Assembly: GCA_001430745.1 (NCBI GenBank)
Contig: KQ482057.1
Coordinates: 611,224-675,223 of the forward strand
DNA: 64,000 nt
Reading direction: 5' to 3'
Source: Auxenochlorella pyrenoidosa
Lineage: Eukaryota > Chlorophyta > Trebouxiophyceae > Chlorellales > Chlorellaceae
Shown: positions 1-24,171 of the stretch, one piece after another
Layout of the letters: each line of letters begins with the position of its first letter
Numbering within the stretch: position 1 is the stretch's first letter
Program-made: the position numbers and the translations under genes
The notes under the pieces: model-generated
What the model was told of the DNA's origin: nothing
What the model saw: only the letters and a program-made list of their open reading frames with translations
Database searches by the model: none

Positions 1-3000
1 TTAGGGCAGAGAGGGGTTGGCGAACACTTGGGGGCGCCAGGTGCAACAGCTGAGCAATAGCGTCGCTTGGATGGCGCAGAAGCTATGACACGCCAACACG
101 CCCGGTTGCCACTTCGTTGGCCGGCTGCGGTCGGCAGCTGCTTGCTAGAACGGCGGCGCCCACCTGCACGCCCAGGCCGATGGGGCGGTGGCGCATGTTG
201 GAGCGGCGCGCCGTCTCCACGGGGTAGTAGTTGACGTCAATGATCTTGTTCAGGTTGCGGGTCACCACGGTGGTCACCTCGGCCAGCTTGTCAAAGTCAA
301 AGAAGCTGCGGGGCAGGGCAGGAGGGAGGGGAGGGCAGTGCTGGGCGCCAGGCGAGGCGCGCCCACACAAGCCAGCCCCTGCTTGCAAGCAGAATTCTCT
401 GTAAAGCAGTGCACATGCATCCAGGAGCTGTGATGCTGCCACTGCAAGCGCATTCATGCAAGCACACGCAGCTCAGACAAGGGTGACTGGAGGCTCACCG
501 GCCCATGGCGTCCAGGCTGCCCACCAGCTTCTTGTTGGTGGGGCCGCTGGGCTCCTTCTCGCGCACAAAGCGCGGCAGCGCGATGGAGGCCAGGTTGCAC
601 ACCGCGGTCTCCTCAGGGGAGGAGTACTCGATGATCTCTGCAGGGAATAAGGGAAGAAGGGTGGGGAGGCAGGGCAGATGAGGTGAGAATGTGTCCCTGG
701 CAGCAGATGAGATGGGTGTGCAGGCCTGGCGGCAGCTGCCGCCGATGGACTGCCAAGCTTGGGGCTGTCCAGCCAGCAGAAGAGGCGGTGCACCACCCAC
801 CCGTGCACAGGTTGGACGACTTGATGGTGCCCAGGTTCTGCTGGTTGGACTTGCGGTTGGCGTGGTCCTTGTACAGCATGAAGGGGTTGCCAGTCTCCAC
901 CTGGTGGGAAACAGGGGCATGTGGGGCCCACAAGCAGTGGACACATATGCTTCACAGCTGCTGAATAGGGGGGATTGTCACCGGTGCTGGCGTCAACGCC
1001 TCCCCTCCAGCGTCTCCCTGCAGGCCCCCACCTGTGCCTCCAGGATAGCAAACCACAGCTGCTGCGCCTTGATGGTCTTGCGGGGGCGGCCCTCGCGCTC
1101 ATACCTGCAGGTTAACAGAAGGTCGAGCGATGGGAAGAAGTGAGGCACGCAGGGGAGCACTAGCAACCTGGTGGATGCCACGCAACAGGCTTCAGGCAGC
1201 AGGAGCCGGCCAGGACAACAGGCAGCCAAGCGTGGGCAGAGGCACCAACAACGAGATGAAAGCGCGAGTAAAACGTTGAACTCTGGCCCCTCCCACACCC
1301 TCACTTGTTGTACAGCGCCTCAAACTCCTCGCCCCAGCAGTCTGCCAGGCCGGGCGCCTCGTTCGGGCAGAACAAGCTCCACTCAGCGTTGGCCTGCGTG
1401 GCAGGGAGAGGGGCAGGATGGAGCGCGACCATGCCTGTCTGAGCAAACCTGCACAAATGAGGCAACAGGAGCAGCTTGCGGCAGGCTGGGACGTTGCGTG
1501 AGCATGGCGGGAATGCAAATGCATCACCACCTGTAGCTCTCACCTCCACCCGCTGCATGAACAAGTCGGGGATCCACAGGGCATAGAAGAGATCGCGGGC
1601 GCGAGCCTCCTCCTTGCCGTGGTTCTTGCGCAGGTCCCTATTGGGAGCCAGGCAGGGGGAAGAGAGGAGCATGTAGGACACAAGCAGGCGACAGGCAGGC
1701 GGCAGTCGGGCGGAGCTCGCCAGACATGCGCAGTGCACGGCAGGCAGAGCTCCAGAAGGTGGAGCCAGGCAGGCAGGTGGGTAAGCAGGCAGGCGCACTC
1801 ACAGCCAGTCAAAGATGTCGGCGTGCCAGGGCTCGCAGTACATGGCAAATGCGCCCTTGCGCTTGCCGCCGCCCTGGTCCACGTAGCGGGCTGCAGTGGA
1901 CGGGAGGGAAGGCACAGGCCAAGGTGAGATTGGGGCGGGTTCCGTGCAGTCTGGCTCCGCCTTGGCATGCAGAGTCGCAGGCACAGAAGCAGGACGCCCG
2001 GCTGCTTGCCACCTGCTCCTGCAACCCGAGCCCCCCTCCTCACCGGTGTCGTTGAAGACGCGCAGCATGGGGACAATGCCGTTGGAGGTGCCGTTGGTGC
2101 CACGGATGTAGGAGCCGGTGGCGCGGATGTTGTGCATGGAGAGGCCGATGCCGCCGGCTGACTTGGAGATGCAGGCGCACTCCTTGAGGGTGTCGTAGAT
2201 GCCTGCAGAGTGAGGCGGGAAAAGGCAGGAACGCGGGCGCTCTTCAGCAGGCAGGCATGCCAGCGGGAGCAACACAGGCAGGCAAGAAGCGCGAGTGCAT
2301 GCTGCTGCCACCTGCTGGCACAGCCAGTGCAGCCAGCGGGTTGCCAGCGTGGCAACAGGGCTCAGGTAGCAGCGAGGGGGAGGAGCAGCAGCAGGCCCTC
2401 ACCCTCGATCGAGTCGTTCTTCATGCAGACCAGGAAGCAGGAGGAGAGCTGCGGGCGTGGCGTGCCGGCGTTGAACAGCGTGGGCGAAGCATGGGTGAAC
2501 CATCGCTGCGACAGCAGGTGGTACGTCTCCACAGCTGCGGGCAAGGGGCAGCAGCAGGCGGCGGACTGAGTGCCTAGCAACGATGATCAGCAGGCTCCCT
2601 GCTCGGTTCGTGCCACGGGCAGCCGCATCGAGAGATTTGGCGGTGCTGCCTCCTCAAGCACCTCGACATCATCGCACACGACTTGTTCACTCCATTGGCG
2701 GCCCCTGCTGTTGGCCCCACCTGCATCGATGTCCTCCATGTGGATGCCCACCGCCACGCGCATCAGCATGTGCTGCGGCCGCTCCACCACCTTGCCGTTG
2801 ACGCGCAGCAGGTACGACCGCTCCAGGGTCTGTGCCCGGGCGGGGAAGGGTAGGGCCAGTGTTGTGAGCAGGCATCGCAGGTTTGGGAACTCGCTGCAGT
2901 GCTCAGGAGCAGGCGCACCGCGAGGCAGCAGGCGCCAGACGGGCGCGTCTTCCTCCCCCACCCTCTTTGATCTGTCCTTCCTCCCCACCTTGAAGCCAAA

Positions 3001-4231
3001 GTAGTCGTAGTCAAAGTCGCGATCGTACACGATCTCGCTGTCCAGGCGCTCGGCGTGCTGCAAGGCAGGGCGGCTATGTGCATGACATATTGGCAGGGAC
3101 AGCCATGAAGGGCAGTTGCAGCGGTGCACCATGTGGGGCAATAGTGAATTGCTGCGTTGGGCAGCAGAACCATATCCCCAAGGGATGTCTTGTGACAAGA
3201 GACCGAGGTAGCGCGTGTGGCTTGCTTGCCTGCATGATGACCTCGTACACCTTATCATCTATCAGCGGCGCCTTCTCGCCATTCTTGGGGTTAACGTGGT
3301 TGTACATCACCTTGACGCTGCAGAAGGAGCAGCGGCCCGTGGGAGCAGCAACAGGCAGGGCACACATGCTGAGAGGGAACAACAGGGCCGCAGCTTGCCC
3401 CTGCCCTGTGTCCCCGACCATTCAGGCAGCGCCAGCTCACGTCTCGCTGAAGCTCTTCAGCGTGTTCTTGTGCAGGTTGGACACCGCGATGCGAGCCGCC
3501 AGCTGTAAAACAGCGACGTGGGAGCATTGTAGAGCAGAAAGCACGAGGCTAGGGCAGGATGACGATCATCTGGGGCGGGCGGGAGGCGGTGGGGGCCTGC
3601 TGCCCACCCGCCTTGCACAGCAATGCACACAGCACCCCAGCCCCTCAGCTGGTTTCCAGCCCTCCCTGCCGCGCCTCACCAGCGCATAGTCGGGGTGCGT
3701 GGCTGTCATGGAGGCTGCTGTCTCTGCTGCGAGCTCATCCAGCTCCGAGGTTGTGACGCCCTTGTACACGCCGGTGGTCACCTTCTGGGCGACCAGCACC
3801 TGTGCAAAGCAGCCGAGCGGCGCAGGTCCCCGCTAAGCCAGCAGATGCTGGAGCTGATGCTGGACCCAAGCAGCGAAGCAGGGGCGACTCCCGCTCGCCC
3901 GCCCGGTTTTGAACTGCGGGCCATGTGGCGCCACCATGCAGGGTTGCGGCGCCCAAGTGCGCGCCCTCAGCGCCCCCGCAACTGATGGTGAATCATTGAC
4001 ATGTGCCCACGGCCCCCGGAGAGGCTCCAGCGCGCGCACCGGATCGCAAAAGTCGGTGTTGAGGCCATAGCTGAGCTTGGTGATGCGGGCTGTGATTTTG
4101 TCAAAGTGCACGGGCTCCGTGCGTCCATCCCGCTTCACGACAAACCTGCAGGGCAGCGATGGGTGGCGGCGGTGAGCTGCGGCCTGTCAGCCCTGCTCAC
4201 GGCCCCATCTGACAGCCCAGCACACTCACAT
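1..4231 (-). CDS. RNR1: Ribonucleotide reductase large subunit (class I R1), 3' part missing
   Basis: Reduces ribonucleoside diphosphates to deoxyribonucleotides with the small (R2) subunit in the cytosol. The N-terminus reads [18 protein letters not shown], the ATP-cone start of eukaryotic R1. Further exons give the substrate-site cysteine in [11 protein letters not shown] (about 2430), the Asn-x-Cys-Thr-Glu catalytic group in NLCTEIIEY (its Glu codon split by an intron, about 805 to 640) and the second redox cysteine in [10 protein letters not shown] (about 575). The last exon seen ends with [10 protein letters not shown] near 170, so roughly the C-terminal 40 percent lies beyond the left edge. 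The start codon itself is split: AT at 4231-4230, intron 4229-4146 (GTGAGT...CAG), G at 4145. At least 14 exons are visible. One intron, after EVIMQ (exon end 3230), begins with GC. The identification is secure; individual exon ends are by eye. Confidence 0.95.
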
Positions 4232-4983
4232 GGTGCCAAGGGAAGCGTCGACTGGGTGAGCTGGAGAAGCAGAGGCGGACAGGCGGCCTCCAAACTTGAA
4301 CTACTGCTGTCCCTGCTGCCCCGCATGGCCCCCCATGGCCTGCGCCACCCGTCGTGCGCATTTGTTCTCAACAAGCGATTCATAGCATGGCTGGGCGGGG
4401 GAGGTCCGCAAGCCCTGGCTGGGCATGGCCCCCTGTCGCTGCCTGCCGCCGCCTGCCCGCTGCTGCCCATTGGGCATGGGCCTCCTTCTCAGCGAAGATC
4501 TGAGCTCACACGCCAGGCTGATGCAGGGTCTTTGATGACGCCAGAAACGGCGTCAACGGCGGAGCACGATGCGGAGCGGGAGCGGAAGCTGGCTTGGTGG
4601 TAACCCTGCACCGCCGCCGGGTAACCGCTATTTAGCATTTCATCTCATCCTTAGGGTTGCACACAGTTCAACAGTGAATGTGGGAATCACCCGTTATGGG
4701 GGCAATCTCAGGGTAAATAACCGATCAATCTGGCCTCAGGCGGTGCGGGGCTGCCGCCCTGCGTGCTGCTGCTGGCCGCTGGCGTTCTTTACCCGGAAAG
4801 GGACAGCGAAACGAATGTGGGACATGCACGTGGCACCCTCCTCCTTTCCGTCCTCATCGTACTTCAACATCTAGACGCATCAAAGTGAAGTTTCAAGCTC
4901 ACCCCTGCCACCAATCCCCCACGGCTGCAGGGCCAGCGCGGCAGGAGGACGGGCAGCGCATCCTGCAGGACGACCTGCAGAAG
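4232..4983. other. Intergenic region between divergent RNR1 and BTB/BACK genes
   Basis: It holds the upstream region of RNR1 (to the left) and of the BTB/BACK gene (to the right). I see no convincing coding exon, although an unrecognised first exon of the right-hand gene could lie near 4815-4880. A perfect 7-base inverted repeat is listed separately. Confidence 0.5.
4536..4555. promoter_or_regulatory. Inverted repeat TGACGCC-N6-GGCGTCA upstream of RNR1
   Basis: Perfect 7-base arms at 4536-4542 and 4549-4555 around a 6-base spacer, about 305 bases upstream of the RNR1 start codon. TGACG cores are bound by plant bZIP factors and RNR genes are usually cell-cycle regulated, so a role as an operator is plausible but inferred. 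Confidence 0.3.
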
Positions 4984-6054
4984 ATGCAGCAGGAGCTGAA
5001 GGCGGAGAAGGATTGCTCGGCGGCGCTCCGGGATGAGGTGGCGCAGCTGCGTAGCCAGGCGGGCGCAGGTGGGCGTGTGTGCCGAGGGCCGGTGCAGGAG
5101 GGCCATATGGAATTGCGTGCGCGCCCAGCGTGCTGGTTCTCCCTGTGGACGTGTATGCTGTAGTACGACGGGCGCCAGTGGGATGCCAGTGTATCCTCCC
5201 TCTGGGTGCTTCAGACTTCTTCGTCACTCTGGACGGCTGCCGGCTGCCCCTGCAGAGCGCCGTGCTGGGAGCTGGCTGTCGCGCCCTTTGCCAGGCGCTG
5301 GCCACCGCCGGCAGCGCAGCCTCGGCCAAGGAAGCCGCGGTGCAAGGGGTCTTCAATGGGCAGCCCCTCACGCATTTGCAGCTGTTCCTGCGGCTGCTGT
5401 ACGGCGGCTCTGCCGGTGCCGCTCAGGGCGAGGACGACCCCTGGTCGCTGGCAGCGATTGCGCACGAGCTGGACGCGCCTTGTGTGCTGCAGGCAAGTGC
5501 GCTGCTCAAGGTCTGCTGGCAACGGGCTGCTCCCCACATCCCCGCATTGACCTGCCTGTCTTGACGGCTCGCTGCAGCGCGCATGCGGCAAGGCACTCCC
5601 AACCCTGGGTCTTGTTTCCTGCATCGGGCAATCCTGCTTCAAGGTGCACTCAAGTCCCTGGAGCGAGCAGGTCCTGACAGACAGCTCCAGTGCACCCGCT
5701 GGCCCTACCCCGCTGTGCCTGCAGGCCTGCGACAAACGGCTGGTGACCCTGCTCAGCCCACGGGACCCCAGCGGTGTCTGGGCCTCCTGGCTCGCCCTAG
5801 CCGACCGCTACAGCCTGTGGAGGCTGAAGCCCCTGGCCGCGCAGCGGGCGCTGGCCCATGTGCTGGAGTGCTACGCACAGCATGCTGACCTGGGCAAGCT
5901 CAGTGGGCTCAGCGCCGGCAGTTACCAGCTGCTGCTCGAGGCGGCGGTGGTCACGGCACGAAACGCGCAGCATGCGCTGCCTGCCGAGCGCAGCGTGAGC
6001 GACCTCATGCCGCCAGTCTTTGCTCGCTGGTCCAAGCTGGGGGACTTCCTGTGA
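4984..6054 (+). CDS. Short coiled-coil / BTB / BACK-like protein
   Basis: Three exons joined in phase (4984-5068, 5215-5492, 5725-6054) give 230 residues. The first part (MQQELKAEKDCSAALRDEV) is a short coiled coil. A BTB domain follows: DFFVTLDGCRLPLQSAVLG, then LFLRLLYGG and LAAIAHELDAPCVLQ. A BACK-like helical region (WLALADRYSLWRLKPLA, LSGLSAGSYQLLLEA) ends the protein. The second intron starts with GC (GCAAGT) at 5493 and sits exactly where the four DUF262-BTB genes downstream have theirs, so this is a family member without the DUF262 part. It is probably an adaptor for a CUL3 ubiquitin ligase, by family analogy only. Start uncertain: the frame stays open upstream to about 4885, and an exon starting after TGCAG near 4931 is possible. 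Confidence 0.7.
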
Positions 6055-7926: not shown

Positions 7927-10056
7927 ATGCTACGCCGGGCTGCAGGCATCGGGCGCCGCCTTGCCTCGGGGACCTCAGGGAGCTCCCCGGTGGAGCTGCT
8001 CGGCAGGCTGGCAGGATGGAGCTTGCTGCCTGTTGGCTGCGCCGCCGCAATCGCCAATGTGGAGCACGTGCCGTATGGAGACGAGGTGCAGGTGTTTGGC
8101 GGCTCTGCAGGCCGTTGGCGCTTCATGCAGCGGGAGTGGATGCAGCCCCAGCCTGACGGGTCGATGCAGGAGGTGCTCCACAACTACCCCCAGCACCTTG
8201 AGCAGGTGGGAAGCGAGCTGGCATGAAGAAGCTGAAGAGACCACATCTCTGCCTGTAATTAGCTCTTCAATTCCCATTGAGCTGTCCCCTGCCATCCCCC
8301 TCCCTCTGTGCCCAGGCTGGGGAGGCAAAGCTGGTGCCGGCGCAGCCCGGCGAGGTGCATTTCACCTGGCTGCAGCCTGTGGAGGCAGATGAGGTGGTGC
8401 TGAGCCCAGCTTACCAGCGCGCTGTCGAGGCAGCTGTCAGGGAGGTGGCGGCAGCGGCAGCCAAGGAGGTGGAGTTCACCGGCTTTGGCACCCACACGCT
8501 GGCAAGTGTGCGGGGGGCAGCAGCTGCCCGCAGGGCGTACATGTGCTGTTCAACACAAAGCGCAGTCTGGAGAGAGCGAAACCGGCGCTTTTGAAGGGCC
8601 AAGCATTTGCCAAGGTGTCCCTGCCAGGGTCCTGAGCTGGCAGGAGATGTTGCTCCACCAAGCTAACGTGAACAAAAGCCCTGGGTATCCCATCCCACAC
8701 CCTTTGCCCAGGAGTGGGGCTGGAATGTGATGGTCATCCCGACTGACAGGTATGTCTGCGAAATCACCAAGGGCGGCGTGGTGGTGCTTTCCAGCGGTCT
8801 GGTGCACAAGACAATGCAGCACTCCTCCCAGTCAGCTGCGGCCCTGATGTTCAACGTTGCGCACGAGATGGGGCACCACGTGGCGCGGCACCTGGTGAGC
8901 TGGTCATGACTGCACCATGCTCTTGGAGGCATCGGGATCAACTTAGCACTGGCTCCTTCCAACATGACCTGCCCCTGATTACCAGTGTCTCTGGCTTCGC
9001 CACTGCTGTGGGTGTCTGCTTGATGCCAGCCGATTACCTGGCCCCTGCCACCCTGCACAGCATGAGCCAACACTGGATCCAAGTGCGCTCTACGCCCTCA
9101 GCGCTCTGCCTTCTGCCATCTGGGCCGACCTATCTTCTGGAGGCAGCATTCCGGCCGTCGTCAGGCGTGTGTATGAGGCGTTGGCTGAGACTGCAGCCAT
9201 TTGCCAGCGCTTGAGCTGGTGAGGCGCGAGTGGTGCATCGTACAGACACCTAGCTTACTGGATGTCAAACTGCCCTCCTCAGCTTCATGCTTAGCTGTCG
9301 GCCATTTTCAGTCAGACATGCAGTGTGCCGCAAAAAGAGCAGCCACTGTTCTTCAGCATGTCCGTTTGCTACCCCTGTTGCAGGCAGCATGAGCTGGAGG
9401 CCGACCACTTTGCAGCTGCGGTGTTGCTGCGTGCCCGCGTGGCCCCTGGCGCCCTGGACGAGGGCATGCGCACCATTGCACGCATGACCGTCCATGACCG
9501 CTCTGCTGATCTGTCCAAACTGCTTCGGCTGGCTCGCCAGGTGGATGCAGTGGATGCGGCGGCTGGCAGACAGGCAGATGGGCCCAGCGAGGAGCAGCGC
9601 CTGCTCCAGGCCCTTGCATCGCAGGACCCGGATCGGCTGAATGACCTTCCGATCCTCATTGTTGGGCTGATGGCCCTTGAGGAAGCTCTCGCCCGCGTGG
9701 AGGAGCGCGAGTTTTTCGGGGACGACACCCCTGCGGACCAGAAGATTTGGGCAGTGGCGCCGGCAATGTCAGCTGCGATAGCGTTCCACCACACACATCC
9801 GCCCACCCAGGCACGCATTCACCGCCTGCGCCAGCTGGGGACCCGCACCGACATGCTGCTGCGCAGCACCGCACCGCTGCTGAGAATGGATAAGCGTGGC
9901 CGCTCCCCTGCCGATCGGGTGGCTGGCCTGCTGGCACAGGCGGAGGCAGCACCGTCTGAGGGGAGTGCGGCAAATGCGGGCCTCCCCACCTTTCTGGCTT
10001 TTGTCTGTGGGGCTGCTGCCGTGGCAGCGGCGGGCCTGGTGACGGATAGGGCTTGA
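7927..10056 (+). CDS. OMA1: OMA1-like mitochondrial M48 zinc metalloendopeptidase
   Basis: OMA1 peptidases are stress-activated inner-membrane proteases that process dynamin-like and other mitochondrial proteins. Five exons join in phase (7927-8205, 8316-8501, 8712-8894, 9061-9218, 9384-10056) to give 492 residues. The N-terminus MLRRAAGIGRRLASG is Arg/Ser-rich without acidic residues, fitting a mitochondrial presequence. IANVEHVPYGDE resembles the conserved segment before the catalytic domain. The zinc site is HEMGHH (8862-8879), with the third ligand in the ELEAD motif at the start of exon 5; the C-terminal HTHPPTQARIHRL is the usual M48 His-Pro/Arg element. The segment after HEMGHH lacks the hydrophobic helix often found in OMA1, but the last 20 residues are hydrophobic (FLAFVCGAAAVAAAGLV). 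The second intron starts with GC (8502). The M48 assignment is firm; OMA1 rather than another M48C member is likely. Confidence 0.85.
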
Positions 10057-11543: not shown

Positions 11544-14434
11544 ATGGCTGCGGCAGCCCTCAGCTGGGCGAGCGCCGCGGTACCCACACGCCGCAGCGCA
11601 ACCTTGAGGCCTCCCGGACGCCTTACGCAGCGATCGTTGATGGCCAGCAAAGAGCTGTGTGCGCGGCGCCCAGCCAAGGTCCCGCCTCCGCTGACTGTGG
11701 CGTCAGCAGCCGCTGCCGGGGGTGCGCCGGTTGGACCTGCCGGCGCTGGTGCACAGGCTGGCGAGCCTGGCAGCACCAAGGTGCGAGTGTACCATCCACG
11801 TGGTACTCTGATCCACTAGCACCAGCTAACATGTTCGGCTGGCAATGTTGTGTCACTGTGCCATGCTGCCTCCTCCTCAGCACCTGCCTGCACCCCAAAT
11901 AATCTGCCACCGCTTCACTCTCCATCGGCCGCTTTTCAGAAGTCCATTGAAGAACTGTTTACAGAGCATGTGTTTGACATCTCGCCCCGGCACAGGTACG
12001 CACGCATTTGGCTGTCATTCCACGCTTTGACACCAGCCACCAGCATGCTTATTCCTGTCCCCCGCCTTCCCAAATCCACACCCCTTGCTCTTCCCTTTTT
12101 TCAGCAATGAGCATACCTGGGAAGAGGAGGAGGCAGTAAGGCTGCTGGAGGACCTCCTGGAGTCTGTGCCCGCTGGGTCGACCAAGGCAGAGTGGGTACA
12201 CAGCCTGGCTAGGTCAGCAGAACCACCCCCCAGCCAGCCAGACTGTGACCTGCTCGCGCCTGCCGGCCCCCGCCTGCTGTGCTTTAAATATGAGCAGTGC
12301 TCCTGTGGCTGCTGCAGTCAGTTACCAGGAGCCGATGGCCAGTTGTAGGCAACCGCAAGCGCGTTCACCCTCCATCCCGCTGCAGGGCGCTGCCGACTGT
12401 GAGCCTAGGCCCCCTGGTTCTGGCTGAAGGGCCCAGTGCAGCAGACCAGCTGCAGCAGAGGCGCGTCATCCGCGGGGAGCAGCGCATCCTCGCGCTGTGC
12501 CTTCTACTGGCCGCCGCGCGCGCCCGCCTTTTGGACAGCAGCAGCGCCGCAGCATTTGAGGCCGCCAAGCAGATCAGGTGCCTGCTGGTGAAGGTGAGGT
12601 GCGGGGAGGGCTGGCGGAAAGGTGGCAGGCACCCCGCCCCGACCTCACGCTGCAGTGGGGCAGCAAAGGGTCGAGGGGACTCACAGAGGCGCGCATGTTG
12701 AAGCCATCAACACGCCTCGTGGGCACACAGTATTTGCCGACCTCTCATCATTTCCCACCCTCCCCCTGTTACCACCCCACCTCGCTGTGACGCGTTCTAC
12801 CCCCTGCAGAGCGGCGATCTCCTGGAGGGCCTGCCAGACCAGCTGCGGGTGCGGCTGGACAGCGAGCAGGACACGGCCTTCCTGCACCGCCTGCTGCTGG
12901 AGCCCGGCTTCCAGCCTGGCAGCGCTGAGCTGGCGGGCGAGACGCAGCGCAAGCTGTGGGCCTGCCTGCAGGTGAGAGTGGCTTTCATACATGTTTGTCT
13001 TCCTTTTGCATGGTGAGTCAGAGGAGGGCAGGAAGAAGGGCACATAGCGGCATGCAATTTAGGGCCTGCCCCCGAGGCTGCCCTGCTGTCAGCATGCCTC
13101 TGAGCTGGCTGTTGGCTGTGGTGCCTTCCTGCCCCACAACCGGCTCCTTCTCCCTTGACCTCTCTGCAGCTGTACCGCAGGCGGCTGGCCAGGCTGGGCC
13201 TGCCGCGCCTGCAGCTGCTGGTGCGCTTCATCCTGGCCCAGGCGTATGTGACAGTGACCATGCTGCCCACCTCTGCCGAGGCACTCAGGTTTCTTCTGGT
13301 GAGCCGGGCGGTACATCTCCAGCCAGCACCTTTGCCCAGCTGGGGCCTGGGTTCCAGACAAAAACTTCCTTCCTGGCAGCTCAGTATTACAAGCAGCGCC
13401 TGCAGGCGTGCACGCTGCATGCAAACTGGAGCCTGGCATGAGAAAGGCCCCGCACAGCACTGCCCTGCGCTATTGCAATCTGAGTACCACGCGACCCCCT
13501 GCCTCACCCTCCCCCGCCGGCAGGCCTGCGCCTCGCTGCCAGACCTGCTGAAGCGTGGCTGGCTGCCGGAGACTGGTCACCTGCCTGACGGCCGAGACAA
13601 GCTGGCTGCCACGGCCGACATTGTCATCAACCTGCACGGCCGCATGCTGCCCCTGCACAGTGCCGTACTGGCTGCCGGCTCCGGCGTGCTGCGCCAGCAG
13701 CTGCCAGCTGGCGTCAGCGCCGCCAGCGGGGCGGCGGCGGTGCAGGGGGCGCTGGAGGGGCACCCCCTGCCAGGCGTGCTGCTGTTTCTGGGCTGCCTGT
13801 ACAGAGGCACTGCCGCTGCAGTCGAGGGTGTGGAGGACTCCTGGACTCTGGCCAGCGTTGCCGCACTCGCACATGCGCTGGATGCGCCAGAGGTGCTGCA
13901 GGCAAGCGTTGCTCTGTGGACGCAGTGAATGCTGAATGGGTGCAGCAAGGAATTTGTGGTCTGGACCAGTGTGTGTGCCTGCGCCATCCTCTGTGTGCAT
14001 TGCATGCATGAACCTTGCTGCCCAACCACAGATTTGAGGAGCAATGTCTCTGATTTGAACACTCAACAACTCCTTGCCTAACTCGGGACACGATGCGGCT
14101 CCCTGATCGCACTCATTTCCTTTTGTAGGTCTGCGATGCGCGGCTGTGCAGCATGCTGGGCCCCACCGCCGACTGGCCCGCCTGGCTGGCGCTGGCTGAC
14201 CGCTACAGCCTGCGCCAGCTGAAGTGGGCTGCGGCCGAGCGCGTGCTCACCGACCTCATCAAGCACTGCAGCAAGGAGGAGAGGCGGCAGGCGCTGCAGA
14301 AGATGGGCGGGCTCAGCGCCGGCACCTACCGCCTGCTGTTTGAGACGACGCTGGAGACGGCGGCCAGCTACCGCTCCGAGCTCTCTGGCAGGAAGGAGAA
14401 AGGAGCGTCAGTCAGCAAAGGGCGAACTTTCTAA
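11544..14434 (+). CDS. DUF262-BTB-BACK fusion protein, copy A
   Basis: Eight exons (11544-11780, 11940-11995, 12105-12212, 12386-12593, 12810-12971, 13170-13298, 13524-13901, 14129-14434) give 527 residues. Residues 1-79 are Ala/Arg/Ser-rich, like a transit peptide. DUF262 (GmrSD N-terminal, ParB-like fold) follows: KSIEELFTEHVFDISPRH, W in SNEHTWEEEEAVRLLEDLL, LPTVSLGPLVLAEG, then VIRGEQRILALCLLLAAA, LRVRLDSEQDTAFLHRLLL and the closing strand FILAQAYVTVTMLP. The hallmark Asp-Gly-Gln-x-Arg is changed to Arg-Gly-Glu-Gln-Arg (12471-12485). A BTB domain (ADIVINLHGRMLPLHSAVLA) and a BACK-like region (LALADRYSLRQLKWAAAERV) end the protein. The last intron begins with GC at 13902. First of four tandem paralogues, 489 bases before copy B. 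Function unknown. Confidence 0.75.
14147..14386 (+). repeat. Near-identical last-exon segment shared with copy B
   Basis: These 240 bases match 17374-17613 with no gap and about five differences by eye, although the rest of the two genes has diverged widely. Confidence 0.85.
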
Positions 14435-14923
14435 AAGGCTGAAAGCAAGGGCCACAGGCCGGGCTTTTGCACACTACATGAATTACTCTTTGCTCCCAGG
14501 ACCCTGATCCGTGATCCAATCGCACTGTTCACTGCTGCAAACACTATTTGAAAACCCTCTAGCGTTGCTTTCTTTGCCCTTGTCATTCTCCACAGCTTAT
14601 CTAGCCGCGCAGCAGAGGTTGGACGCTCCTGCATGCCAGGACTGGCCCTCTGTGCTGCTTCGATCTTTCAAGTGTTCTGTGCTCTCCGCTCTTGCCATGC
14701 ACAGCGTTGCTCTTGCAAATCAGTGGGTATCGACTGTACTGAGAGCATGCAAACGCTGCTGAGCCGGGGATGTGGCCTCCTGTGCGCTGGCTCCGCCGGC
14801 CTGGCGCTTGTCGAGTGCCCACTCATCTCACTGCCATCAGGCAAACCAGGCACCAACCTGACGCAGCCCTGCCAACTCCTGCTTGTTCTTCCCCTTTCCA
14901 CCTGCTTGGAGAGGTTCCAAGGC
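14435..14923. other. Spacer between copies A and B
   Basis: 3' end of A and upstream region of B. No other gene seen. Confidence 0.4.
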
Positions 14924-17637
14924 ATGTCGACAGTGGGGCTCCGTGTGCCCTGCCCTGCTCTGCTCAGGGACTGCGTGCTGCCCAGAGCGCTGCCCTTGGC
15001 AGCCCTACCATCGTCTATCGGAGCCGGCAGGCAGAGCCCCCAGGGTGGGAGTTGGCCGCAGCGGCAGCCGACAACAGCACGGGCTGGCCGCCTCCAACGC
15101 TGCCACCGCCGCTGCCGGGGGGAGCCCTATGAAGGCTTGGCGTCAGACCTGAACGCAACTGCACCCCTGCCACGTGTCCCCTCTGGTTCTGCTGACATTC
15201 AGGTAATCACTGCTGGCACCGCCACTAGTCACGGTGCTTACTGGCAATTACCTGTGGCGCTTTACAGCCTGCCTTTGAAGTTGCCTGCCACCAACCAGCC
15301 GGCATTCCTGGCTGGTGGCGAGGAAACAAAACGTTCCAGATCGTTGTGCCTGCAGGTTTGCACGCAGGAGCTGTTCAGCAGCTTCCGGTTCTCCATCAAG
15401 CCCCGATCTTCTGCTCTTGCCAGGTAGGCTGCCCAGCAGTCACCGCATTGTGCCAGCGGAGTGCACTGCGCGCGCTGTGACAGACAGACAGAAGTCTTGT
15501 GCTCCCCTTGGCCAACCTCCCGGGGTGCAGAGAAGGCAGTGATTGGACCGAGATGCACAGAGACTTCTGGACTCTCTGGGAGGCGGCCTCCCCTGATGCT
15601 GATGCTGAAGACGCATGGTGGGTGACCAGCAATAAAAATCGCAATTAGACGCAGCTGCGCACTAACTGAACACCCACGGCACTCTGGCGCGTGGGCCCAC
15701 AGCTTGAGGCTCCTACGGAGGTTGCTGCGCTCAAACCCCTGCTGTGCTCCCTGCCACATGGGTCTCCTGCATGCATGTTCTGCAGGCAGCTGCCGCCGTA
15801 CTACCTTGGGCAACTGACCCTGGGGTCAGCAAGCCCAGGGCCCCCCAGCAGTGATCTGACCAGGCACCAGGTTGTGGACGGCAGGCAGCGCATCCTCATG
15901 CTCTGCCTGCTGCTGGGCGCCGCGCGCCGGTGCCTCCTCAGGGAGACAGCAGGCATGCAGAGCGCCAGCAGTGGGCAGCGCCGCACTGCCGCCGAGCAGA
16001 TCAGCCAGCTGCTGGTGAGGCCAGGACTGCTCATCAGGAGGGGTGGGGACAGCAGGCAGCTGCGGCAATTGAGGAGCTGTGCAGTCAATGCGTCTACCTC
16101 CAACTGCACTCCTTGATCACCCTTGCTGCCGCGTCCCTGCTTGCTGTTCCCTGCCTGGTAGAGCGGCGACCTGTTGGAGGGCCTGGCGGAGCAGGACACG
16201 GCGCTTCTGCACCGCCTGCTTTTGGAGCCTGAGTTTGACTATCACAAGCATGCGGCAGGGGAGACACAGCTCAAGCTGTGCAAGTGCTTCGAGGTTGTGG
16301 TGGTTTGGGTTTGATGGTTTGATCGGTGTAATGCGGGGATCGAAGGAACTGCTCAGTGCAGGTTCTTGACTGCGGCCTTCTAGAATAGTGCTGCCAACAC
16401 GGTCTGCTTCAGCACCCCTCATCCCCTTGCCTTCTTCCTCTGCTGCCACCCGCATGTGCAGCACCTCTACTTGGACTTGGTTGTTGAGCCGCTGTCGCGC
16501 CTGCTGCTGCTGGTACAGTTTATCCTGACCCGCGTCACCGCCACTGTCACCATTCTGCCAGGCGAAGAGGAACCGTCTCTGCAAGCTGACATAGAGGCAA
16601 GTGTTCACCGGATGCTCTGCATTCATCATTTCTTAATTCCGTGTTCCTGAATCTACAGCTCGTTTGAGTGCAAACCCACTCCTGACAGTGATATGTGCCT
16701 GTCCTGCAATGCGCACGCCTGCAGGGCCAGCAGCAGGCACACGGCAAGCAGCAGGCACAGCAGAAGGGGCATGGGCAGGGGCCAGGCTCCTCCCTGCCTG
16801 CAAGCCCTACACTGTGCCTGGATCACCTGCCCGACGGCTCGGAGCAGCTGGCCGGCTGTGCTGACATCACCGTCACCATGGAGGGCCGCCAGCTGCCCCT
16901 GCACAGCGCCATGCTCGCTGTGGGCTGTCGCGCCCTGCGCCATGCACTGTGCAGTGGCGGCGCATGCGATGCCGCCAGGAACAGCTCTGCCAGCGGGGCA
17001 GCAGCGGTGCAGGCGGTGCTGGAGGGGCAACCCCTGCCAGGCGTGCTGCTGTTCCTCAGGTGCTTGTACAGCGGCTGTGCCATCGCTGCCGAGGACGATT
17101 CAGACCCCATGGCTGTGGCAAGCGCGGCGGCACTGGCACACGCGCTGGACGCTCCTCATGTGCTGCAGGCAAGCGCTGCTCTGTGGGCCTGCGAACAGAT
17201 GGGCATGCCATCTTCTCAATTCTGGCCCCGTCGGAAGTCTTGGCCCTACATTGGCAGGCACGGCAGCCACCTCTCGTTGCCTTGGCAGCTTCTGCCAAGT
17301 TGCCGGGCCCGGTGCCGGCAGCTCAAGCGCACCGTACTCGGGCCCTGTTCTGCAGGCCTGCGACGCCCAGCTTTGCAGCATGCTGGGCCCCACCGCCGAC
17401 TGGCCCGCCTGGCTGGCGCTGGCCGACCGCTACAGCCTGCGCCAGCTGAAGTGGGCTGCGGCCGAGCGCGTGCTCACCGACCTCATCAAGCACTGCAGCA
17501 AGGAGGAGAGGCGGCAGGCGCTGCAGAAGATGGGCAAGCTCAGTGCCAGCACCTACCGCCTGCTGTTTGAGACGACGCTGGAGACGGCGGCCAGCTACCG
17601 CTCCGAGCTCTCTTCATACAAGACCACTAACACCTGA
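14924..17637 (+). CDS. DUF262-BTB-BACK fusion protein, copy B
   Basis: Eight exons (14924-15202, 15356-15423, 15540-15617, 15786-16014, 16162-16293, 16462-16596, 16725-17168, 17356-17637) give 548 residues, with the same phase pattern as copy A. DUF262 part: VCTQELFSSFRFSIKPR, SDWTEMHRDFW, QLPPYYLGQLTLG, and an intact-looking VVDGRQRILMLCLLLGAA (motif at 15877-15891), ending in FILTRVTATVTILPG. A Gln-rich linker (GQQQAHGKQQAQQKGHGQG) replaces the short linker of A. Then come CLDHLPDGSEQLAG, the BTB strand ADITVTMEGRQLPLHSAML and the BACK-like LALADRYSLRQLKWAAAERV. Two introns start with GC (16597 and 17169). The last exon is almost identical to that of A (probable gene conversion). The N-terminal 93 residues are Arg/Ser/Ala-rich and start MSTVGLRVPCPALL; start chosen as the first in-frame ATG of that exon. 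Confidence 0.75.
17374..17613 (+). repeat. Near-identical last-exon segment shared with copy A
   Basis: Partner of 14147-14386; see that entry. Confidence 0.85.
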
Positions 17638-18117
17638 TGCTCTTGCCTGTTCTCGAAGCAGTGCAGCAACAGAGGCTTCAACTGCAAGGCCAGCCTCAGC
17701 TCCCAGTCTTTCTTTTCAAGCTGCTTGCACAGCCCTGAGCTCCAGTGGCCTCGCTAGCATCTCCATAGTGTTGCATCCTCCCTGTGCCACAGTGTGCAGC
17801 GTGTGTCCCCCACTGCGCTTGCCCACTGTAAATATGGAGGAGGGCTGCCCCCACAAACGCAACATGCTCTCCAGTGCTCTGCGCTCTTGCATTTTGGCAA
17901 TGCCTGTTTCACTTGTCATCGCGAACCTTAACTACTCACAGTCCCCAGCCTGCCACTGCAAAGCAGTGGCGTGCAAATCTGTTTGCTCTGCACAGCACGC
18001 ATGCATGACCGTCAGTCTCCCTTGCCTTGGACACAGCAGGCAGCCCGCTGGCGCCGCCATGCTGATCAAGCTATGTCACGTAGTTCCACATGATTTAGAA
18101 CCTCCCAGAACGTGAGG
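17638..18117. other. Spacer between copies B and C
   Basis: A TGTAA at about 17826 could be the poly(A) signal of copy B. Nothing else seen. Confidence 0.4.
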
Positions 18118-20711
18118 ATGAGCGCAGCCGTGCTCAATCTGGCCGTCTCCTGGCCGCCAATTCACCGCCAGCCGGTGCCAAGGTCGCTTTCTGGGGCCGC
18201 ACAGCCCATGAGCGTTAAAGCACAGGGGCAGATGAGCGCGCCAGGCAGAGGCTGGCCTCTGCGGGCACCCTCTGCGCCAGCCCGCCGCCTCAGCAGAAGC
18301 CGACGGTCTGGTCGATCTGCTGGGGCCGCGCCGGGCATCGTGGGCGCCTCACGCCTGCCTGAACCAGGGAATTCCGATGTGCAGGTGAGGCATTCTCTTG
18401 CGGAGCTGCGGTGGGCAGCACACCATGGCCTGCTAGACTGTCCCCACCAAGATTCTGCCCTGCATCAGCAAGTGTCACGCGGGCCCCCTGCGAGTGGGCG
18501 GCCATGTCCAAAACTCCCTTTCTCCTCGCCCTTCCTGGCTCTCGCAGGTCTCCGTCAGGGACCTGTTTGCCGACTACATGATAGTGACATCGTCGCCTGC
18601 CGGGTAGGGTGCATGGCTGTCCTGGCAGCGTCCAGCCTGCTGCATGCAGCAATCACACCCATGCGCACTGCCGCCATGATCAACAGCTTGCGATGGGTTC
18701 TGCCCTGCCGTTGTGCAGAGAGAGCTTTGAGCAGGCGGGCGACCTGCTGCAGGACCTCCTGGGCGCTGTCCCAACCGGCACGCAAGATGCTCGGTGGGCG
18801 AGCAACGACCCCCACATGAGTTTGTGTGCACATGTTTGGAACTCCACGTGGCTCCCCTGCCTGTCATGCATGCCTTTTAACTGCCAGCGCTCAGTGCTAG
18901 CTCAAGCTGAGTGCTGCACATGCCTCTGTTGACAGCCGATGCACACTCCGTGGGCCTTCCCGCCTCCCTCCCCCCTGCTGCAGAAAGCTGCCGCCCTACT
19001 TCGTGGGCCCAGTCACCCTGGCGCCGGCGGGCCGCCCAGCCGCTGGCAGCGGGCTGCCCAGGCGGTACGTCGTGGACGGCCAGCACCGCGTGGTAACGCT
19101 CTTGCTGCTGCTGGCGGCGCTGCGCGACGGCATGTTCCTGGCAGAGGACGCCTTTTACCGCTCCAGCTGGGCAAAGCCAGGCTATGATCCGGGTCTCGAG
19201 GAGTCCCTTGAGGGCATTGCTCGAGCGGTGTTCTACAGTGATGTGAGGCTCGCAGCGAGGGCAGGGAGGGACTGGGAGTGACGACAGTGCACCTGGGCAG
19301 GCAGGAGGGCCTGGCAGCCTGGGCTTGGGAGCGCCTCCATGTGGCACGCTGTCCCCGCCAGCAGTGCTTGCCCCATACACATCTTGGGCTTCTGCTGTGC
19401 CTCCGGCGCAGGGCTACAACGCCCTGCAGGGCCTGCTGCTGAAACCGCGGGTGCAGCTGGCCAGCGAGGAGGAGACTGCCTTCCTGCGCCGCCTGCTTGA
19501 TTTTGAATTCCAGGCGAGGGAGGAGGAGCTGGCGGGGGAGATGCAGCGACGGCTGTGGCTGTGCCTCAAGGCAAGTGGGGGGCGGCGCACGGGGCGTGGG
19601 TGTTGGGAAGGGCAGCAGCTGGCTCCCTCATTTGTTGGTTCGCTGGCTGCGGAGCACAGGGTCTGCCCTTCTGCCTCCAAGAGTCCACCCCTCCCTCTCC
19701 TTTATGGATCCCTCTTCCATCCCTCGTCCATCATTCTTCCACCAATGCGCCTTCCATACCTCCCTGTTCCGCTGGGTGCTGGCTGGCATGGAGTTTCAGC
19801 GGGTGGTGCAGCTGGTGCAGTTTGTTCTGGATGGCGTCATTGCCTCCGTCACTGTCTTGCCCGTCGGCGAGGCCTCGCAGCAGACCGATTTTAGGTCAAA
19901 GGTGAGTAGATGCGCACTTGCGGCCCTGAAAAGGAAAGCACTTGGTTGTGCTGGCTGCCAGGTTGCAGGCTTGAGGCTGAATGGCCAGGTGGTACGCATT
20001 GCACTCGACCCAGTGCAGCCTTTCACGACTGCCTTGACTGCTCCTGCATTGTTGGCAGGAGGATAAGCAGGGGCAGAAGCTGGAGCAGGAGTTTGAGCAG
20101 GTTGCTTCAGCGTTCCGGTCCCCTGTGGACGGCATGTGCCTGGACCACCTGCCCAACCACTCGGAACCGCTCGCTGTGGGCGCAGACATCGTCCTCACCC
20201 TGGACGGCTGCCAGCTGCCCCTGCACAGCCAGGTGCTGGCCGCCGGGTGCACGCACCTGCAGCGGGTGCTGAGCCGCCCGAGCAGCGCTGCCCCCAAGGT
20301 GGGGGCAGTGTACCTGGCATTTGAGGGGCAGCGCCTGGAGGACGTGCAGCTGTTCCTGCGGCTGCTGTACAGCGGCGGCACCGCTGCACAGGATGTGACC
20401 GAGCCTGGATCTTTCAGGCAGGTGGTGCAGCTGGCGCATGCGCTTGAGGCCCCCTTTGTGCTGCAGGCAAGGCGGGGACAGGGGCTGCATGTGTGCTCTA
20501 CTGTTGGGTCGTGCCGTCACAAACCCTCTGCTGCGAGACTCGCAAGCCGCCATGCCGCAGTTCGCCCGCAACTGTGGGCCTGCCTGCTCCCCTGCAGGCC
20601 TGCGAGGCGCGCCTGCTGGAGCTGCTGCCCAGCAACGAGGGCTCCCGGGCCGAGTGGTTGGAGCTAGCTGATGAGTACGACCTGCACAGGCTGAAGGAAG
20701 CAGGGCAATGA
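18118..20711 (+). CDS. DUF262-BTB fusion protein with truncated BACK, copy C
   Basis: Proposed exons 18118-18384, 18548-18603, 18719-18793, 18984-19242, 19412-19570, 19800-19901, 20059-20466 and 20598-20711 give 479 residues. This copy has the most recognisable DUF262: VSVRDLFADYMIV, KLPPYFVGPVTLAP, then YVVDGQHRVVTLLLLLAAL (motif 19075-19089), LASEEETAFLRRLLDFEF and FVLDGVIASVTVLPVG. The BTB part is ADIVLTLDGCQLPLHSQVLA with LFLRLLYSGGT. Oddities: the BACK-like region stops after LADEYDLHRLKEAGQ, about 60-70 residues short of A, B and D. The acceptor expected before LFRWVLAG (about 19774) lacks an AG, so the exon is drawn from the next AG (19799), losing about nine residues. Introns 5 and 7 start with GC (19571, 20467). 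It could be a gene in decay, but no frameshift is seen. Confidence 0.68.
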
Positions 20712-21228
20712 CTGGTCTTCTTAGGGCTTAAGGCCTGCTGTCCCCTCCAGGCAGCACAGAGCCCAGGGCGCTGCTGCGCAAAATCCGCAAAATTCTCAGC
20801 GCCGGCCGGCGCCATTCCAAGCAGTAGCAGTGGTGTTCCAATTCGATCTTGGATGTGATTGACACTTTGTGGATCATGCCTGCTCATTCGTCTGATGCAC
20901 CTGCCAGTGCAGACCCGCGCTGCCAACGGCAGGCAAGCCTTGTTATGTTCATGTGAACACCATCTGCCCTGCCAGTCGCACTTCAGCGTGAATATTCCTC
21001 AAGACATGTCCTCTATATAGAGGCCAGGAACTCTGTATCAGCAGCTCTGAGTTGCCTGCCATGCAGGTTAGTCTGCCTGCCTGGAAAGGTCGCCGGTGCC
21101 TCGCCAGCACAGCGGCCTGCACAGCGGCCAGCGCGGCAAGTGAAAGCAGTATTGGGCGCAAACCGCCCACAGATCGCTTCCGTCGCAACCTAGAAAGCCG
21201 CAAGGAAGACGGCTCAGAGCCTTCCGTC
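20712..21228. other. Spacer between copies C and D
   Basis: The first bases continue the homology region after the C stop codon poorly. The frame of copy D is already open from an ATG at 21061, so its right part may be coding. A short TATATA stretch lies near 21013. Confidence 0.4.
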
Positions 21229-24171
21229 ATGGCTGCAAGCGTGCCTCTTGGTCTCCCCCTGGGAGCGTGCGCTTCCTTGCCAAGGCGGGCCTGCATGCAT
21301 CCGAGGTTGCTCGCTAGAACCAGGCGGCCCTCTAGTATCACTGGGCAGCAACAACGAGCAGGCGGAGGCTGGCTGGAGCAGGCGCCGCAAACGGCGGCGT
21401 CCCGCCAGCGGGCAACGCCACCTGCGAGCCAGGAGCCAGAGCCCCCAGGCGCAGAAGCGCCACTGCCGCCCTCAGAGGGCCCCTGCCTGCAGGTGCATGT
21501 ACTGCAGTGTGCTCAACCAGCCAAATCGGAGTTGGAACAGAAGCAGCACCATTCTCTAGCCTTACCGCCAAACAGCTCGCTTCTACGCTCCTGCCTGCAC
21601 CGTGATCTGCCATTCGCCCTGGCCTGAGCCCTGCCCTTGCCGGATGCGTGTAGGTGTGCATGGAAGACCTGTTCAGCAAATTCTTGCTGGCAGCAGGCCC
21701 ATCAGACGGGTGAGCTGGGCACTTGGTACTGTGGTCAGGGATGAACCATCCGGAAGCAGCAGCACCGGTACCGTCCAGCTGATGTGCGGCCGGGCGCTTC
21801 TCCTGGCGGAATGCAGGGAGGGCTACGGCCTGACAGCACAGCAGGCAGACAAGCTGCTTCATGGCCTCTGGAGGGCGATCCCCGCCGGGGCAACCAATGC
21901 ACAGTGAGCTGAGCCTGCTCTGCAAGCTGTTTCCCTGTAGTTCACTCTTACTTCGCTGCTGCTGTGCATCGCTCTCTCACACAGGCACCATCTCCCCCAG
22001 AACAGCTGTCAGCTATGATACCCTCGTTCCTTCCTTGTGCAGAGAGCTGCCACCCTTCTTCCTGGGGGGCATCACCCTCGCGCCCGACAGCCCCGCTGCC
22101 CCCGCGGCCAGTGGCGAGCCGCTCAGGCATGTGATTGTGGACGGGCAGGAGCGCATCTTTGCGCTCTTGCTGCTGCTGGCCGCCGCGCGCGAGCACCTCG
22201 CGACTGACCTGCACCTGCTGGGCGCGCTCTCTGGCAGCAGCATTCTCCCACGCGACCTGATGCAGCAGGCAGGCGCGCTGCTGTCGCCGGTGAGGAGCCG
22301 GAGTTGACAAAGCTGGGGAGGTACTTGGAGCTTTGTTTTGAGCGGCACGTAGGATGCCAAATTTGGGTGGCTTGCGGCCCTCGTGCGACAGCTCCATACC
22401 TACACAGAGGGGCCTTATGTAGCAGGCCCTGGCCAAACCACACTCCCTGTCCTCGCTTCTTTGCTTGCATCAAGTCCCTCCTTCCATGGACTCCTTCTTT
22501 GACTTTCCTTGGAAATCTGTCCCTTGTGCAGGAGGAGGGCTGGCCGCTGGTGCGGCTGGCCAGCGAGGAGGACACCTGCTTCCTGCAGAGTTACCTGCAT
22601 GACCCTGCTCGCAAGCCTGGCATTGCCGAGCTGTCAGTGGCGGCACGCAGCCGGCTGTGGGCTTGCCTCAAGGTGCCCTGGTTTGCACAAGGGCTGGGCA
22701 GGGGGGGGGGGGGGCGTGGAGGGGCGGCCAGCCCCATGGAAGGAGGTTTGGAAGGCCAATGCCTCACCTGCCCAGTCGGTATGCACAGCGTCCTGCCTAT
22801 CCTGCGCTTCAAACAGCATGGCCTCTGCGCCGCTTGCCCCTGCAGCTCTTCCGCTGGCGACTGGAGGATTCGGACATCCTCCGCCTGACCTTGCTGGTGC
22901 ACTTCATTCTGACGCGCGTGATTGCCAGCATCACCATCCTGCCTGGCGTGCTTGACACCTCGCAGCCGACCGAGACCGAGCCTGAGGTGCGTTGATGCAC
23001 AGCTTGAGGGCTCGGACACACAGCTTGTGGGATTGTCATGACCTCAAGCACAAACGGTTTGCTCTTGGCAGCGCAGGCTGGCAACGACAGGGAAGCATCC
23101 AAGCATCCAGCAGCGCCTGCCTGCCCGCTCAAATCGCGCCTGCAGGTGCCATGCCTACAGAGGGAAGAGGACGAGCCCGAGGCAATGCAGCAGCACACAC
23201 CATGGCCCAAGTTCTGGACGGAGCTAGAGGCACTGGTGCAGCGAAATCCAGAGCCAGAGCCTCAGCCAGAGCCTCAGCCGGTGCAGGCACAGGAGCGGCC
23301 TGCTGCAGCCCCGCAGCCCCTGGGTGGCCACTTGTGCCTGGACCACCTTCCAGGGGGCTCAGAGGTGCTGGCTGCCTCAGCCGACATTCACATCACTGTG
23401 GAGGGCTGCATGCTGCCGCTGCACAGCGCGGTGCTGGCTGCCGGCTGCCACACCCTGTGCCAGGTTCTTTGCAGTGCTGGTGCAGGCAAGGCTGCTGGCA
23501 GCAGTGCCTCTGGGCAGGACGCAGTGCAGCAGGCATTCCAGGGGCAGCCCCTGGTGGTTGTGCAGCTCTTTTTGAAGCTGCTCTACACTGGCGGCACCGC
23601 TTCCGAGAGCGTGGCTGAGTCCACATCTTTCCAGCGGGTGGTGCCGCTGGCTCATGCGCTGGATGCCCCCTTCGTGCTCCAGGCAAGGCAGGGACATGGG
23701 CCTCTTCCACTCTGTGCAAGCTTTTGCTGCTCATGCTGCATACACGACGTCTGCGTTGCTGGAGTCGCAATGCTTCTATATGCTTCCAGATGCCAGCGAG
23801 CAGTGCAGCCCTCACCTCCTGTTCCGCTTGCTCCCCTGCAGGCCTGTGAGGCGCGCCTGTTGCAGCTGCTACCCTGCGAAAAGTACCGCTGGGCCGAGTG
23901 GCTTGTGCTAGCCGATTGCTGTGGCCTGCGCCAGCTGAAGCCAGTGGCGGCAGAGCAGGCGCTCGCAGACCTGCTGTCTCTGCCAGACAGCGCAGAGCGC
24001 GGTGCGATGCTGCGCAGGATGCGCGGGCTCAGCGCTGCCACGTACCAGGAACTCTTTGAGGCAATTGTGGAGGGTTTGGCACAGGCCGGTCCAGGCAAGG
24101 AGAAGAGTGTTCAGTGGCAACTCGCCATGCAGCGGGTGCTAGGGACGGGCGGCGCTGATCTCAGCACCTGA
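21229..24171 (+). CDS. DUF262-BTB-BACK fusion protein, copy D
   Basis: Eight exons (21229-21492, 21654-21709, 21817-21903, 22043-22289, 22532-22672, 22846-22986, 23146-23682, 23842-24171) give 600 residues. DUF262 part: VCMEDLFSKFLLAAGP, LTAQQADKLLHGLW, ELPPFFLGGITLAPDSP, HVIVDGQERIFALLLLLAAA (motif 22140-22154), LVRLASEEDTCFLQSYL and FILTRVIASITILPG. An acidic Pro-rich linker (PEPEPQPEPQPVQAQ) precedes CLDHLPGGSEVLA and the BTB strand ADIHITVEGCMLPLHSAVL. A full-length BACK-like region follows (LVLADCCGLRQLKPVAAEQA, MRGLSAATYQELFEAI). The last intron starts with GC (23683). Start uncertain: ATG 21229 gives MAASVPLGLPLGAC, like copy A; ATG 21061 in the same frame would add 56 residues. The acceptor of exon 7 is also a choice among nearby AGs. 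Confidence 0.75.

Follow-up and report, generated by a model that had tools for sequence, protein, structure and literature searches.

Tandem DUF262-BTB-BACK fusion genes in the green alga Auxenochlorella pyrenoidosa and their likely sources on the same contig

A stretch of 64,000 nucleotides from Auxenochlorella pyrenoidosa (“the window”; positions 611224 to 675223 of contig KQ482057.1, here C56, in the 51.6-Mb, 65-contig assembly GCA_001430745.1) carries four tandem plus-strand genes, g1 to g4, at window positions 11544 to 24171. Judged from their sequences, these are almost certainly genuine fusion genes, in which an N-terminal DUF262 part is followed by a BTB domain and a BACK-like region. 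Most described DUF262 proteins are defence enzymes of prokaryotes, whereas BTB-BACK proteins are eukaryotic and often act with ubiquitin ligases. What is new here is that the likely sources of the fusion lie on the same contig: an intron-bearing nuclear gene of the GmrSD type, ∼170 kb from the array, and BTB-BACK genes without a detected DUF262. Sequence comparison makes it probable that the fusion originated from relatives of these genes.

The genes extend from 11544 to 14434 (g1), 14924 to 17637 (g2), 18118 to 20711 (g3), and 21229 to 24171 (g4) and encode spliced chains of 520, 551, 479, and 600 amino acids. Exon models were built by hand from sequence alone. Each comprises eight exons with intron phases 0,2,2,0,0,0,0, in frame and with a single terminal stop, which confirms the gene structure given in a preliminary description of the window; in-frame splicing and domain matches likewise bear out its view that four consecutive same-strand genes join DUF262, BTB, and a BACK-like region. 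GC content at third codon positions is 0.75 to 0.80, versus 0.59 to 0.63 for intron GC. The intron 7 donor is GC rather than GT in all copies, and GC donors also occur in g2 intron 6 and g3 intron 5; the acceptor of the last is atypical and lies within the exon, making exon 6 of g3 shorter by ∼12 residues. Exon 1 encodes a basic, acid-poor N-terminal segment (g1, 11544 to 11780; g2, 14924 to 15202; g3, 18118 to 18384; g4, 21229 to 21492). For g2, g3, and g4, the start codon was picked from more than one in-frame ATG, others being at 14633 and 14747, at 18208 and 18232, and at 21061 and 21295, respectively.

Exons 2 to 6 encode the DUF262 part, at 11940 to 13298 in g1 (PF03235 E value, 3e-5; 24.7 bits), 15356 to 16596 in g2 (5e-3), 18548 to 19901 in g3 (1.4e-6; 29 bits), and 21654 to 22986 in g4 (0.012). 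None of these four Pfam matches reaches the 33.2-bit cut-off. Comparison of a profile of the four parts with one of 27 bacterial DUF262 sequences gave a probability of 99.4% (E value, 6e-22) over 186 columns, with 0.4% for the reversed control, and the match spans exons 2 to 6, beyond the DGQxR motif alone. The family profile also finds a DUF262 protein of solved structure (9jfl; E value, 2e-4) in a PDB search that compared sequences, not folds. In PADLOC, one top model (PDLC02686, “Orf5”) is common to P0009 and P0002 of Micractinium tetrahymenae, the bacterial-type DUF262-DUF1524 protein P0007, and the algal GmrSD-type gene. We regard the DUF262 identity as settled because of the profile-profile match, the relatives above the cut-off, and the shared PADLOC model; the original DUF262 call is upheld, and with PF03235 matching all four chains, the alternative that profile searches would find DUF262 in no copy is excluded. 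The preliminary description had also looked to significant PF03235 and PF00651 (BTB) matches in the same chain; both were matched in three chains, but PF03235 stayed below its cut-off in all four and g4 had no BTB match. PF07510 (DUF1524/HNH) had no Pfam match in the four window chains, and their designation as GmrSD enzymes was rejected, the HNH half being absent.

The same domain pair, which was to be sought in other algae, was found in M. tetrahymenae, where two annotated single chains exceed both Pfam cut-offs (33.2 bits for PF03235 and 20.5 bits for BTB): P0002 (33.8 and 24.1 bits) and P0009 (48.1 and 28.3 bits). In P0010, PF03235 is above (35.7 bits) and BTB below the cut-off; in P0001, PF03235 is below (26.5 bits) and BTB above; in P0003, both are below (PF03235, 15.4 bits); and P0011 has a BTB match below the cut-off and no PF03235 match. 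Identity between g1 and P0002, in an alignment that includes g1 exon 1, is 67% over 500 aligned residues. Locus tags ABPG75_000106 to ABPG75_000109 are consecutive and all have family matches, which suggests a conserved tandem array in M. tetrahymenae, adjacency being taken from the tags. P0001 (ABPG75_000098) has the order BTB-BACK-DUF262-BTB-BACK and may be either a genuine fusion of greater length or the models of two neighbors merged into one. BRAKER2 with RNA sequencing hints was used to annotate a published M. tetrahymenae genome, possibly the ABPG75 assembly (PMC12516953). The protein searches scored ∼8000 candidates each and do not show absence outside Micractinium. In a literature search in which subscription papers are mostly missing, no publication was found that combines DUF262 with BTB, or BTB with Chlorella and Micractinium, in keeping with the earlier remark that no described family of this architecture was known. 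The architecture thus stands as real and as one that recurs in other Micractinium genomes.

The BTB domain is encoded by exon 7, at 13524 to 13901 in g1 (PF00651 E value, 2.7e-5; 24.7 bits) and, together with a linker, at 16725 to 17168 in g2 (3.5e-3) and 20059 to 20466 in g3 (9.2e-6; 26.2 bits). The matches of g1 and g3 are above the cut-off, and that of g2 is below. Exon 7 of g4 (23146 to 23682), with a long linker, has no Pfam BTB match at an E value of ≤10 and was assigned by alignment to g1 to g3. Exon 8 encodes the BACK-like region, at 14129 to 14434 (g1), 17356 to 17637 (g2), and 23842 to 24171 (g4), and in g3 a truncated BACK (20598 to 20711) that terminates after a short piece (stop at 20709 to 20711). 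Out-of-frame sequence at 20598 to 20830, running past this stop, resembles the remaining BACK by eye, and g3 may be decaying. No Pfam BACK family matched the four window chains at an E value of ≤10, let alone above a cut-off, and BACK_BPM_SPOP reached an E value of only 0.024, in P0001. The BACK assignment rests on position behind the BTB domain and on alignment with KBTBD2, which the family profile matches through BTB and the start of BACK (8gq6; E value, 9e-4; PDB sequence search). CUL3, to which BTB proteins of this kind might bind, is encoded in the same genome: joined exon pieces of locus L043 score 208 bits to Cullin-3 in the PDB versus 143 bits to the next cullin.

The GmrSD-type gene (locus L003, 5034 to 680, minus strand) lies near 805 to 810 kb on C56 and combines DUF262 (PF03235, 59.8 bits) with DUF1524/HNH (PF07510, 85.6 bits). 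The motifs of the GmrSD family (QR, DGQQR, FxxxN, and HNH) are defined in a 2015 survey; of the 613 fully sequenced organisms that it lists as having GmrSD homologs, three are eukaryotes (PMC4619093). The algal gene has QRPYLW, YDGQQR, and the HNH motifs EHVLPQ, LANLxLL, and NxDFxxKK, with only a variant (MYRSSMNKG) at the FxxxN position; its N terminus is basic, and the exon 11/12 junction of the model is not resolved in frame. Outside the array, six-frame genome searches yielded a single match each for PF07510 and PF03235, both in this gene; the PF03235 search recovered one of the four array copies, so these counts are lower bounds and diverged DUF262 genes may be missed. In M. tetrahymenae, it has the counterparts P0004 and P0005, both incomplete models with PF07510 as the only domain listed. 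A metagenome protein, P0006, matches one L003 reading frame in 440 of 441 residues, with introns read through, and therefore this alga or a near relative was present in that sample.

A hidden Markov model (HMM) of the DUF262 parts of nine fusion members scores the GmrSD-type gene at 94 bits, versus 6.8 bits for the best of 500 shuffles and 52 bits for P0007. In a DUF262 tree of 37 rows, this gene and the nine fusion rows are separated from 27 bacterial rows (25 of 80 loci, which were the best 80 of 286 relatives, plus P0007 and P0008) with support of 99/98 and in 100% of 200 bootstrap trees. Introns 4 and 5 of g1 fall in the same alignment columns (152 and 225) and phase (0) as two introns of the GmrSD-type gene; the probability that such agreement in both exact position and phase arises by chance is 8e-4. 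In g2 and g4, intron 5 matches as well, and in g3 it is shifted by 12; intron 4 is off by 2 columns in g2 and g3 and by 21 in g4. The DUF262 homology of the fusions stops beside intron 6, before the FxxxN motif is reached, and the fusion break is placed at intron 6 for this reason; in g1, this intron is one column from an intron of the GmrSD-type gene (phase 0 versus 2).

Candidates for the other source are BTB-BACK genes without a detected DUF262. One lies upstream of the array on the plus strand (5196 to 6054), with exons to 5492 and from 5725 to 6054, a 5′ end that is not fixed, and an intron at the position of the fusion's last intron, with a GC donor. The second, also of two exons and with an intron at that position, is at 109 kb on C56 (locus L041, 4039 to 3209). 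All family members found in the genome, at least four fusions and at least two BTB-BACK genes, are on C56.

The proposal that one fused gene was duplicated agrees with the DUF262 tree, in which the nine fusion rows group at 100/98. The BTB-BACK tree does not show a single fusion origin: fusion rows require two changes there, and a single origin appears in 0% of 200 bootstrap trees. No starred branch of that tree rules out a single origin, 8 of its 11 inner branches are open, and P0011, which has no Pfam match to DUF262, was entered in it as a fusion. Two of its clades each contain window and Micractinium copies (100/100 and 100/99). In the BTB-BACK tree g2 pairs with g1 (100/97), and in the DUF262 tree it groups with P0003 and g4 (89/79 and 82/63, within a 96/93 clade); synonymous divergence (dS) between these two copies is 0.94 for the DUF262 part, 0.48 for BTB, and as low as 0.14 for BACK. 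Because its placement differs by domain and dS declines in this way, g2 looks like a mosaic that may have formed by gene conversion or unequal exchange. The last exon of g2 is 84% identical to that of g1, and intron 7 only 35%.

The explanation that we consider best is that exons were shuffled within the algal nucleus, with an intron-bearing GmrSD-type gene as the donor of the 5′ (DUF262) exons. These would have been joined to a two-exon BTB-BACK gene, with the joint near the intron that closes the DUF262 homology, and the nuclease (DUF1524/HNH) half would have been lost. The fusion would then have been duplicated in tandem and retained in more than one Micractinium-type species. Its BTB-BACK half would make the protein dimeric and able to bind a partner, possibly CUL3, and the DUF262 half would be a recognition or regulatory module, nucleotide responsive where QR and DGQQR are kept and a binding-only pseudoenzyme where they have decayed, so that a former “bind, hydrolyse, cut” switch would become “bind, recruit.” Sequence comparison suggests dimerization, perhaps with CUL3 recruitment, for the BTB half, and the DUF262 half probably serves for recognition, with enzymatic activity in no more than some members, because the nuclease half is gone and the motifs are kept in few members. 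Taken as a whole, from shuffled fusion through duplication to recognition and recruitment, this reading falls a little short of an even chance; partner binding by a BTB-BACK dimer with recognition by DUF262 is a more tentative proposal, and may well be wrong. A speculative extension, which we consider distinctly unlikely, is that a type IV restriction sensor of modified DNA or of a nucleotide became a eukaryotic surveillance receptor when exons shuffled on a single chromosome put a BTB-BACK adaptor in place of the DNA-cutting half: foreign, perhaps chloroviral or modified, DNA would lead to ubiquitin tagging or complex assembly, not cleavage, and the rapidly diverging, recombining tandem copies would form a sensor repertoire.

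Known systems resemble the fusions in part. The N-terminal DUF262 is homologous to that of GmrSD type IV restriction endonucleases (GmrS, PF03235; GmrD, PF07510) over the retained length, whereas the fusions lack the DUF1524/HNH half and FxxxN region and have BTB-BACK instead. QR (..YQRPY.W) is missing from all four window copies and DGQQR is altered in each, to RGEQR in g1, DGRQR in g2, DGQHR in g3, and DGQER in g4. QR is retained in P0009 as QRQYEW, and P0009 and P0010 have exact DGQQR. SspE, a phosphorothioate-sensing protein, has a DUF262 GTPase that licenses an HNH nuclease and an essential arginine in DGQQR (PMC13251355). Some fusion members have a DGQQR-type DUF262, and PADLOC SspE models match P0009; unlike SspE, the fusions are without a nuclease, and just six of the nine members keep the arginine, among them all four window copies but not P0001, P0002, or P0003. 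With the PADLOC systems Orf5 (PDLC02686) and HEC-06, the likeness is the one top model mentioned above, of which P0009 and P0002 match only the first part (≤40%). BTB-BACK-Kelch adaptors of CUL3 such as KBTBD2 align through BTB and the start of BACK and differ in that the window chains have no Pfam Kelch match and DUF262 is N-terminal. MATH-BTB-BACK (SPOP/BPM) proteins have an N-terminal recognition domain ahead of BTB-BACK, an order that the fusions share with DUF262 in place of MATH; the only BACK_BPM_SPOP match is the weak one in P0001.

Each part of this reading has rivals and counterevidence. That separate DUF262-like and BTB-BACK genes were read as one is extremely improbable. The algal poly(A) signal is TGTAA, and this string lies within g2 intron 5 (at 16327), which, with the several GC donors and the atypical acceptor, could point to a gene-model artefact; however, it follows the stop in g2 only and is a weak guide here, it is absent from intron 6 in all four copies, and g1 intron 6, if retained, stays open and in frame. 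The joint is the same in all four copies, and National Center for Biotechnology Information models of M. tetrahymenae place these two domains in one chain as well; on these grounds, the view that each copy is a pair of genes was rejected. Several observations weigh against the proposed sources. The branch of the GmrSD-type gene is long (2.19), and its grouping with the fusions could be long-branch attraction; the bacterial-type metagenome protein P0007 scores well, with 49 bits to P0002 and 48 bits to P0010, the latter more than the algal gene attains (40 bits); a chance intron match has a probability of 0.15 when phase is disregarded and position may differ by ±2 codons; and other BTB matches, on contigs C60, C23, C26, and C57, leave room for another BTB donor. 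Independent transfer of the DUF262 part from bacteria, rather than descent from the algal gene, is nevertheless very unlikely in view of the algal rows on one side of the DUF262 tree, the two intron positions common to g1 and the GmrSD-type gene, and the higher score of that gene than of P0007 with the fusion HMM.

The decayed QR and DGQQR motifs count against an active DUF262 in the window copies, and the nucleic-acid or nucleotide sensing envisaged in the preliminary description is not supported. Single-sequence P0009 found only three PDB matches, all weak DUF262 proteins (E values, 0.046 to 0.54), and no BTB chain among them. The CUL3-contact motif in the BTB of CUL3 adaptors is phi-x-E, and the LSE of KBTBD2 aligns to alanines in the family; of 13 BTB stretches scanned, five contain literal phi-x-E strings, all at later positions (g2, the second BTB of P0001, P0003, P0010, and the 109-kb gene of C56), and those of g1, g3, and g4 contain none, P0012 lying outside the scan. 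We do not accept “CUL3 adaptor” as a membership claim. With the motif absent from the place aligned with KBTBD2 and with presequence-like N termini in several proteins, the suggested ubiquitin-adaptor function is likewise unsupported. Import into an organelle would count against a CUL3 link, since CUL3 is cytosolic and would be out of reach of a protein inside an organelle. Such import, to plastid or mitochondrion, with BTB-BACK as a mere dimerization scaffold without ubiquitin ligase and a DUF262 role related to nucleotides or DNA inherited from an organelle-targeted GmrSD-type ancestor, is a serious rival, though on balance rather unlikely. It is serious because six of seven N termini (g1 to g4, P0002, and P0010) have zero to one acidic and eight to nine basic residues in their first 60 (one and nine in g1), the seventh, of the GmrSD-type gene, having 3 and 10. 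The lack of phi-x-E at the place aligned with KBTBD2 also speaks for import. The composition rule was set after the values were seen, with P0001, P0003, P0009, and P0011 not counted, and 81 of 617 background ATG frames (13%) of the GC-rich window satisfy it; no such segment opens the models of P0009 and P0003, which may, however, lack a first exon. Unlikely, too, but less so than the surveillance receptor, is that these are mostly decaying, lineage-specific duplicates of a fusion that arose once or a few times, copies that drift with little function. Ratios of nonsynonymous to synonymous divergence (dN/dS), computed among window paralogs only, indicate weak constraint (0.40 to 0.81 throughout the 12 comparisons of DUF262 or BTB and 0.49 to 1.03 in six BACK comparisons, with 0.69 to 1.03 in the three that involve the g3 BACK remnant), g3 is truncated, and motifs have decayed in most copies. 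Against decay, all four frames are intact across eight exons, g1 and P0002 remain similar over their aligned length, and two clades contain both window and Micractinium copies. The copies do diverge fast, through relaxed constraint or conflict.

Elsewhere in the window, joined exon pieces at 1800 to 4270 on the minus strand match the ribonucleotide reductase large subunit (PF02867, 132 bits; PF00317, 33 bits), and an M48 peptidase-like exon lies at 9295 to 10053 (PF01435, 22.5 bits; cut-off, 20.3). Of eight long open frames compared with Pfam to identify neighbors, one had a match.

A GmrSD-type gene in an algal nucleus is notable in itself. Under the exon-shuffling explanation, this gene and its apparent BTB-BACK offspring lie on one contig with introns partly shared, and the birth of a domain architecture by exon shuffling may be readable here nearly stepwise. 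If it is true that the BTB half recruits a ligase, the array would directly exemplify how a sensor from prokaryotic immunity can be connected to the ubiquitin signalling of a eukaryote.

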